In this document: positions 7,357 to 26,667 of the stretch, piece after piece
Layout of the letters: every line of letters begins with the position of its first letter
How positions within the stretch are numbered: position 1 is the stretch's first letter
Source of the DNA: an uncultured Lachnospiraceae bacterium
GTDB lineage: Bacteria; Bacillota; Clostridia; Lachnospirales; Lachnospiraceae
Assembly (NCBI GenBank): GCA_945949045.1
Contig: CAMFDG010000021.1
Span: 1-34,367, forward strand
DNA: 34,367 nucleotides
Reading direction: 5' to 3'
Program-made: the position numbers and the translations under genes
Notes under the pieces: generated by a model
Databases searched by the model: none
Seen by the model: the letters and a program-made list of their open reading frames with translations, nothing else
What the model was told of the DNA's origin: nothing

Positions 7357-7867
7357 GAAAACTTGCCGCACTGATTTTCGAGCGGCCCCGCCTGCCGCCG
7401 GGATTCTCCGGGGATGGCTGGCGGAACAGTTCGCGCAAATTGCGTACATTTGTCAGGTATCGAATTTCGGCTTCAAGTTTGTATACATTCGACAGCCGGA
7501 CGCTTCTGCAGTGGCGCCCGTCTATGACAGACGCTCTCATGATTCCTGCACCTAGTGCGAGTAAATGCCTCCATCCACAGAGTTTATCAGGCACGGGAAA
7601 TACAAACGCGCTACGCTTAAACGTGTATTCCCCGTGCCCACTTTTGTGGATGGAGGCATTAACTCGCACACGGTTTGGAATAAATCGAGCGTCTGTCATA
7701 GACGGGCGCCACTGCAGAAGTGTCCGGCTGTCGAATGAACGAAGATTATCTAAGGAGCCGAAATCCGATACCTGACAAATCTGCAATTTGGTGCGAGTTC
7801 CGCCAGCCATCCCCGGAGAATCCCGGCGGCAAGCGGGGCCGCTCGAAAATCAGTGTGGCAAGTTTTC
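7357..7867. repeat. 511-bp segmented palindrome (giant foldback element or structured RNA)
   Basis: The whole segment is an inverted repeat of five blocks. The pairs are 7357-7427 with 7797-7867 (71 bp, 2 mismatches), 7448-7472 with 7756-7780 (25 bp, 1), 7486-7536 with 7687-7737 (51 bp, 1), 7555-7578 with 7646-7669 (24 bp, 1) and 7590-7603 with 7625-7638 (14 bp, 1). The apex is 7604-7624. Sequences between blocks (7-20 nt per side) do not match across arms. The repeat ends sharply and is flanked on both sides by AAG (7354-7356, 7868-7870), a possible 3-bp target duplication. The stop codon of the gene to the right straddles the boundary. Open frames inside on both strands are by-products of the symmetry. 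No transposase is present, so a non-autonomous mobile element or a long hairpin RNA are the main options. Confidence 0.9.
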
Positions 7868-8293: not shown

Positions 8294-8752
8294 TTACCAG
8301 TATTTCGGAAGCCCGTATCCAAAGAAAAAATAGTAGAAGGCACCTGTCATTTTCCCCAAAGCCATGGCTGTCATGACGAGCTGCAGCCCCCGCTTCATAT
8401 AGAGCCTGCGGAACAGAATGGGAAATGTGTTCAGAATTTCTGCCAGGGCAACGGAGATACATCCCACAAATATTCCTGCAGAGATTCCATACAGCCCCAG
8501 AAGGAAATGCCCCAGCCATACCATCGGAAACTGTGCCTTCCAGTCAACAACGGAAAAAACGGCACCTGTCAGTACACCGAGAACAATCATATTTTCTATG
8601 GTAAAAATGTGATCCGCAAGACAGCTCTTTTTAATTATGCGGGGAATTACGCCAATGACAAGCAGGAAAGCGAAAGTTCCCGCGGAGATAGCCACGCCGC
8701 AGGCGAAAGTAATAAGCACCATCAGAACAGTTTTAAGAAACATCATGCTCAT
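8294..8752 (-). CDS. spoVAB: Stage V sporulation protein AB
   Basis: A 152-aa membrane protein with about four or five hydrophobic segments. It resembles SpoVAB: GVAISAGTFAFLLVIGVIPR near the N-terminus, ENMIVLGVLTGAVFS in the middle, then LGLYGISAGIFVGCISVALAEILNTFPIL. SpoVAB is an accessory part of the SpoVA dipicolinate channel, made in the forespore. The ATG at 8752 follows GAAAGGGG and lies inside the end of spoVAA (20-base overlap), so translation is coupled. In the classical operon spoVAC would follow; here a 115-aa orphan and the palindrome follow instead. Confidence 0.85.
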   Translation of the reverse strand: MSMMFLKTVLMVLITFACGVAISAGTFAFLLVIGVIPRIIKKSCLADHIFTIENMIVLGVLTGAVFSVVDWKAQFPMVWLGHFLLGLYGISAGIFVGCISVALAEILNTFPILFRRLYMKRGLQLVMTAMALGKMTGAFYYFFFGYGLPKYW

Positions 8753-9380
8753 GCCCCTTTCTTCCTGCATTCTCGATAAATGTGGTGTCTACATCCTTTT
8801 CGTATTTGCGCATCTCTACCTGAATCGGTGTCGGATCGGAGGTTATCTTTTTTCTTCCTATATGGTTAAAGAAAACAAGAATACCGACAGCCAGCCCCAG
8901 ACAGTAGCACACCTCAATTTCCGTCACATTCGGTTTATTCACTCCCATGATCTGTCCGTAAAAGCGGTCAAACACTTCCCCGATGGATATATCATTGTTG
9001 AATGCCATGATGGTAAAAGCCGATCCCAGAAAGATTAAGAGGCACACAGCCCCAACCTTCAAACACTCCAGCCATTTCGGAGCCGGCGGCCGGTCTATAT
9101 ATTCCACTACAAAATCCTGCTCTCCGTAGCTGACCACCTCCACCTGGGGATAATCATTCTGGATCAGTTCGATGATTTTTAAAATGGAAAAAACCTCAAT
9201 TCTCTTTTTCTTTGCTTCTTCATTCTTTTGAAATGTATAAAAAGTTTTATTTTTGATTCCGGCACAGATTGCCGGATCCGAGCACTGTACGGACATAACA
9301 TCCTGTATTTTCACCTGTGGTTCGCGGCAGACACTGTTTCGCTCCGCCTTCACATATACCGTTTCACACTTTTCCTTCAT
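8733..9380 (-). CDS. spoVAA: Stage V sporulation protein AA
   Basis: A 215-aa protein matching SpoVAA architecture. A soluble N-terminal domain (about 1-110) includes KIQDVMSVQCSDPAICAGI and VFSILKIIELIQNDYPQVEV. Two membrane segments follow (about 117-137 and 165-185), with FNNDISIGEVFDRFYGQIMG between them and FFNHIGRKKITSDPTPIQVE after the second. The N-terminus carries extra cysteines (MKEKCE, SVCRE). The start at 9380 has AAGAGGTG upstream. A sigma-G/F-like promoter lies immediately upstream, consistent with forespore expression. It overlaps spoVAB. Confidence 0.87.
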   Translation of the reverse strand: MKEKCETVYVKAERNSVCREPQVKIQDVMSVQCSDPAICAGIKNKTFYTFQKNEEAKKKRIEVFSILKIIELIQNDYPQVEVVSYGEQDFVVEYIDRPPAPKWLECLKVGAVCLLIFLGSAFTIMAFNNDISIGEVFDRFYGQIMGVNKPNVTEIEVCYCLGLAVGILVFFNHIGRKKITSDPTPIQVEMRKYEKDVDTTFIENAGRKGHEHDVS

Positions 9381-26554: not shown

Positions 26555-26667
26555 GGCTATACACCTCCTTTTGTCCAAAGGATAACAAAAGAATGCATCC
26601 CCTTCTGCAACTTGCTGCATCAATTCTGCATCATTTACATCACAAAAATCAGTGCTGGAAGTTTTTA

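Follow-up and report, generated by a model that had tools for sequence, protein, structure and literature searches.

The window analyzed here, the whole 34,367-nucleotide stretch of DNA from an uncultured Lachnospiraceae bacterium, contains a 511-bp palindrome that raises the question of whether such a structure is a mobile DNA element, the gene of a structured RNA or an artefact. An earlier note, made from the sequence alone, described a giant palindrome of conserved stems and non-matching loops and offered two readings, a foldback element moved in trans or a large structured RNA expressed from the spoVA operon; the results below support the former and not the latter. The palindrome belongs to a real, multi-copy, mobile family of palindromic elements of the Lachnospiraceae that was not found in Rfam, in the record annotations examined or in the literature searched.

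The palindrome itself is real, as its limits were recovered in two separate analyses and its predicted fold lies far beyond that of shuffled sequences (Table 1). The plus strand folds at -409.9 kcal/mol compared with -170.5 +/- 6.2 kcal/mol for its shuffled versions (z -38.4; none of 100 folds as well) and the minus strand likewise (z -34.9; 0 of 100), with a single rod of about -410 kcal/mol predicted from either strand. The inverted-repeat search resolved four arm pairs of 71, 25, 61 and 30 nt that are 97%, 96%, 92% and 90% complementary, respectively, the fourth lying at 7550-7579/7645-7674. The middle is paired as well, with another conserved hairpin at the apex (about 7590-7641), so that the unmatched segments are internal loops within one rod.

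The element is flanked by a DUF3837 gene, whose stop codon overlaps the element edge, on one side and a flotillin-like gene on the other, both on the minus strand, followed by SpoVAB (8294-8770). The nearby spoVA gene is SpoVAB, but the adjoining genes are, according to Pfam, the DUF3837 and flotillin-like genes. Two open frames across the element (158 and 111 aa) gave no Pfam match.

Table 1. Features of the palindromic element and a related solitary end in the window.
Feature	Position	Strand	Basis
Whole palindromic element, full-length family copy	7357..7867	.	Inverted repeats, fold; absent at syntenic G005 site
Outer left arm; terminal sequence AAACTTGCCGCACTGATTT at 7359-7377	7357..7427	+	Inverted repeat, terminal matches
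Outer right arm; terminal sequence AAACTTGCCACACTGATTT at 7847-7865, minus strand	7797..7867	-	Inverted repeat, terminal matches
Second stem, left arm	7448..7472	+	Inverted repeat
Second stem, right arm	7756..7780	-	Inverted repeat
Third stem, left arm	7486..7546	+	Inverted repeat
Third stem, right arm	7677..7737	-	Inverted repeat
Conserved core: asymmetric internal loops and apical hairpin (model R1)	7522..7701	+	Alignment, profile searches
Apical tip, one of the most conserved regions in other genera	7604..7624	+	Alignment, copies
Solitary terminal sequence, 1 mismatch	26646..26664	-	Terminal-sequence search

With three mismatches allowed, the terminal sequence AAACTTCCCRCACTGATTT occurs 52 times in the genome of the window (an assembly of 2.16 Mb in 78 contigs; 80% complete), compared with none for its reversed control, and 70 pieces match the 511-base sequence when both strands are counted. 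Core-bearing palindromes measure 511, 537, 370, 365, 338, 336 and 260 bp, a 390-bp palindrome keeps the core in part, and palindromes with family ends in which the core is lacking or incomplete measure 264, 107, 74, 55 and 34 bp. The earlier note had named a single copy, with no relatives and no covariation, as grounds for giving up its reading; dispersed copies, relatives in other genomes and covariation are all present.

Several copies carry additional or altered interiors. Three copies in genome G000 (L031 1114-1379, L032 1034-1299 and L034 1030-1295) share an insert of about 86 bases, located to one side of the core and folding into two additional hairpins, and the interior of another element with family ends (L052 751-1004) is a tandem repeat with units such as GGACCGTGAAGGCC. 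At the smallest scale, 34-bp hairpins with family ends (L193 2931-2964, L194 2955-2988 and L197 1078-1111) may be terminators, since open frames converge on at least the first two.

The 511-base sequence matched 5 of 60 genomes in a sample of relatives, its own included, with two of the others weak; a core from G016 used as a query matched 5 of 62 genomes of the genus, own genome included; and about 20 element places were found in G079, including half-elements cut off by the end of a contig. The covariance model R1, built on the 180-nt core, matched 5 of 299 genomes drawn from the bacterial family, the source genome among them. Of 392 genomes taken from the order it matched 3, each of them within the Lachnospiraceae; both searches used strict filters, under which weak matches are lost. 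The exact core pattern was present in 27 stretches from six assemblies of a species-genome collection, with titles naming Lachnospiraceae, Lachnospira, Clostridiales or Bacillota. Among plasmid records there were three matches, two from Lachnospira eligens and one from Agathobacter rectalis, the two named carriers, with no annotated gene beneath. In G016, which is a single contig of 3,449,685 bases, the insertion and its flanks are common to A. rectalis at 98-99% identity. Many contigs of G000 and G079 end inside elements (e.g., L035, L036, L039, L040, L089, L095 and L098-L102), so copy numbers in metagenome assemblies are probably underestimated.

No family match was found in the phage collection, and IMG/VR, queried with the exact core pattern alone, had no match to it. 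Rfam returned nothing at the gathering score for the window region and six further loci; on the element it gave only microRNA-precursor models far below that score, and beside it two small snoRNA models. The literature searched, mostly excluding subscription papers, held no description of the palindrome family, which is apparently undescribed.

The foldback half of the earlier proposal is supported by these dispersed copies together with element-free sites in a relative, target repeats on several copies, and a search that found no autonomous partner. Two copies, the window's included, are absent at the matching site in G005. At the site of the window copy, both neighbouring genes are present in G005 and the aligned flanks are 79 bp apart, compared with 600 in the window. 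The second copy in L029 separates genes for an ABC-transporter ATPase and an ABC-2 permease, which in G005 are joined without an element; for the first L029 copy the site is uninformative, as G005 carries about 1 kb of other sequence there. The window site is also element-free in G079, G010 and G076, where the intergenic DNA aligns poorly, and the corresponding G074 stretch aligns on the flotillin side only. At the orthologous site of G079 (L175, about 430-570), a different, unrelated-looking inverted repeat stands in the element's place.

Of 24 loci entered into a flank test, 19 gave two-ended places, one of which (L196 1918-2587) is probably no copy. Perfect direct repeats of 7, 8, 8 and 10 bp flank four of the 19, standing two or three bases outside the AAACTTCCC ends; the remaining 15, with the window copy among them, have no perfect target repeat. 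The summed direct-repeat score was 47 over the 19 copies against 10.5 +/- 9.4 with exchanged flanks, a value reached in 1 of 2000 exchanges. The AAG target duplication proposed for the window copy was not upheld, its best repeat score being 0. A TA duplication, which the flanks had suggested, was displaced by the 7-10 bp repeats.

Known insertion sites in A. rectalis and L. eligens include CCA tRNA nucleotidyltransferase-proS and NUDIX-cls. The insertion beside proS in G014 has lost its centre and right arm, and TTAGGCGCGAA, which occurs twice in the A. rectalis DFI.5.28 locus (in the core and downstream), occurs once in G014, at the join; this is the pattern expected for deletion between short repeats. 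Solitary arms (L030 and L033) and the solitary end in the window may have a similar deletion origin, the latter being probably a remnant of another copy.

Eleven copies from G000 and G079 (the Agathobacter set) were aligned arm by arm. Within a single element, the arms are 95-98% identical to each other in the stem windows (columns 21-100 and 161-200), whereas arms of different elements are 69-85% identical, and same-side arms are no closer than opposite-side arms. In the loop windows (columns 201-220 and 261-340) the two sides of one element are 24-66% identical and the same side of different elements is 83-100% identical; windows 1-20 and 101-160 are intermediate. In pairwise counts, which are not independent, differences affecting both arms compared with one arm stand at 44:17 and 486:104 in the stem columns, and the ratio is reversed in the loops (25:259 in columns 261-334). 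The earlier observation that changes spare the stems and fall in the loops describes a single copy accurately, but across the Agathobacter copies the stems vary together and the loops are conserved. The stem contrast is weaker in G267 and G099, which represent two other genera and where one-arm differences exceed both-arm differences over the whole alignment and stems within an element are often no more alike than same-side stems of different elements. Between genera, the outer stems diverge widely yet pair, the core is better conserved than the outer arms, and the loops and apical tip are still recognisable.

Deletions are mirrored as well, with short copies missing the same stretch from both arms. 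Of the six short or full copies tested for this, three (L027, L032 and L090) contain the junction sequence once per arm, letter for letter. In L034 the mirroring is imperfect, with mismatches, in L091 one side is longer by 8 bases, and L026 lacks any large deletion. It is unlikely that two separate deletions would share one junction, and copying from arm to arm would give such a junction directly. Copying alone would erase the loops too, and their persistence therefore implies selection on them.

Stems that change together are also what a multi-copy gene for a large structured non-coding RNA would produce, with the pairing under RNA selection and the loops serving as functional motifs. The conservation of the core across genera, the conserved loops and tip, and both-side changes in 26 of 61 core pairs (in a seven-sequence core alignment) agree with this explanation, as does the lead of minus-strand G-U in the A. 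rectalis group (21 to 10) and in the seven-sequence alignment. However, if one RNA strand were selected, leftover mismatches would be expected as G-U on that strand, and the balance noted earlier for the window copy (3 and 4 in this analysis) extends to the family: over 36 elements and 3872 locally supported pairs, the two strands had 86 and 105 G-U pairs (p = 0.19). A further 280 mismatches were of other types, and many of these probably fall in the conserved loops. Plus-strand G-U leads instead in G267 and G099 (21 to 35 and 21 to 34), and a structure-fitted alignment of 39 cores gave 87 G-T on the plus strand and 50 A-C, 25 of the G-T representing one fixed pair. A functional minus-strand RNA, which an excess of A-C over G-U in the seven sequences had suggested, was not supported by the 36-element and 39-core counts. 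Also against an RNA gene are the lack of a favoured gene orientation (around the cores of 35 loci the neighbouring genes show each of the four possible orientations, with counts of 12, 9, 9 and 5; in one locus, L128, the core was mislocated), the lack of an Rfam match at the gathering level and the many coreless derivatives. An RNA gene is considered an unlikely explanation overall, and the specific proposal of an RNA from the spoVA operon is not supported, given copies in all gene orientations, no overall G-U strand preference and a family that is not tied to spoVA. In one A. rectalis copy (L064 755-1100), all seven transition-type arm mismatches run one way (G-U on the minus strand 7, on the other 0), a bias such as deamination of one arm or selection on one strand might leave.

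Since G-U shows no strand preference, the pairing seems to be maintained at the DNA level, and the covariation is better explained by arm-to-arm copying than by RNA compensation. The element is accordingly best read as a non-autonomous, foldback-type mobile DNA element whose arms are homogenised by copying and whose asymmetric loops are under selection, an interpretation that is regarded as probable. A putative transposase supplied in trans would recognise the terminal inverted repeat AAACTTCCCRCACTGATTT, and insertion would proceed into AT-rich intergenic DNA by a staggered cut of about 8 bp. Near-complete self-complementarity may then let one arm serve as template for the other whenever a replicating or moving strand folds back on itself, so that substitutions and deletions arising in one arm appear in both. 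Template switching has been reported to make the arms of inverted repeats uniform (PMC8604942). The asymmetric loops and apical tip would escape this copying because selection retains them, most simply as features recognised in the folded DNA, and coreless copies, down to the 34-bp hairpins, would persist as derivatives.

No autonomous copy was seen from the spacing of ends in the window's own genome (80% complete) or in 12 other genomes, nor in 12 stretches of the own genome, mostly around solitary ends. Terminal-sequence matches were present in 10 of the 12 other genomes (40 in G079, 1 to 5 elsewhere, none in G005 and G267; the reversed control gave 1 to 2 in G010 and G099), and with ends and open frames as the criterion, no end pair 1-3 kb apart around a gene stood out.

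A more far-reaching version of the foldback reading, considered unlikely, is a mobile element of a new kind whose renewal passes through a DNA hairpin, one arm templating the other in each round, with several conserved asymmetric loops, read together as one oriented folded-DNA unit of about 500 nt, acting as the enzyme's signals. An improbable alternative is that the element is a folded single-stranded DNA on which a tyrosine recombinase or HUH transposase acts, in the manner of IS200/IS605, REPINs and integron attC sites, and that the loops mark it for recognition; pairing maintained with no strand preference and oriented asymmetric loops fixed by side are as this would predict, but the 7-10 bp target repeats on several copies are a misfit, as HUH and attC insertion are not known to leave any. 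That the palindrome arose by misassembly or from one ancient inverted duplication, as the several copies that end at contig ends might suggest, is very improbable, being contradicted by copies in complete plasmid records of L. eligens and A. rectalis and in a single-contig genome, and by dispersed copies with element-free sites.

Among known systems, the element works like a foldback MITE, and the features of that class that were tested are present: shared terminal inverted repeats, target site duplication (at the family level), element-free sites, and no coding capacity, the two open frames of the window copy lacking a Pfam match. Short deletion derivatives are likewise common to both. Foldback elements and MITEs have a parent transposon, whereas none was found for this family in the search by end positions; unlike a usual MITE, it is also complementary through the whole element and has a core conserved between genera. 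ERIC (IRU) and YPAL sequences are similarly non-coding, dispersed and predicted to form one long stem-loop. The target repeat of ERIC is TA, and the present family differs in having 7-10 bp repeats, in being about four times longer and in arms that change together. Many E. coli genomes carry ERIC, and the window copy had no match in 5,426 E. coli genomes, an indirect comparison in which no sequence link was found. The listed length of ERIC is 127 bp for E. coli, and in Yersinia it ranges over 69-127 bp (PMC2267715). REPINs, which depend on RAYT transposases, are also mobile hairpins between genes; the present family is far larger and has target repeats. Integron attC sites resemble it in folded shape, and their unpaired bases are conserved while the stem sequence varies, but this family is far larger and dispersed singly.

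Long near-perfect palindromes are usually unstable in bacteria; here they are kept, and are mobile, in several genera of common gut bacteria. Their co-changing stems beside fixed loops provide a natural record of arm-to-arm copying under selection. Additionally, covariation alone is no proof of a functional RNA, because homogenisation of inverted repeats at the DNA level yields the same signal, and the balance of G-U between strands helps to separate RNA selection from such homogenisation.
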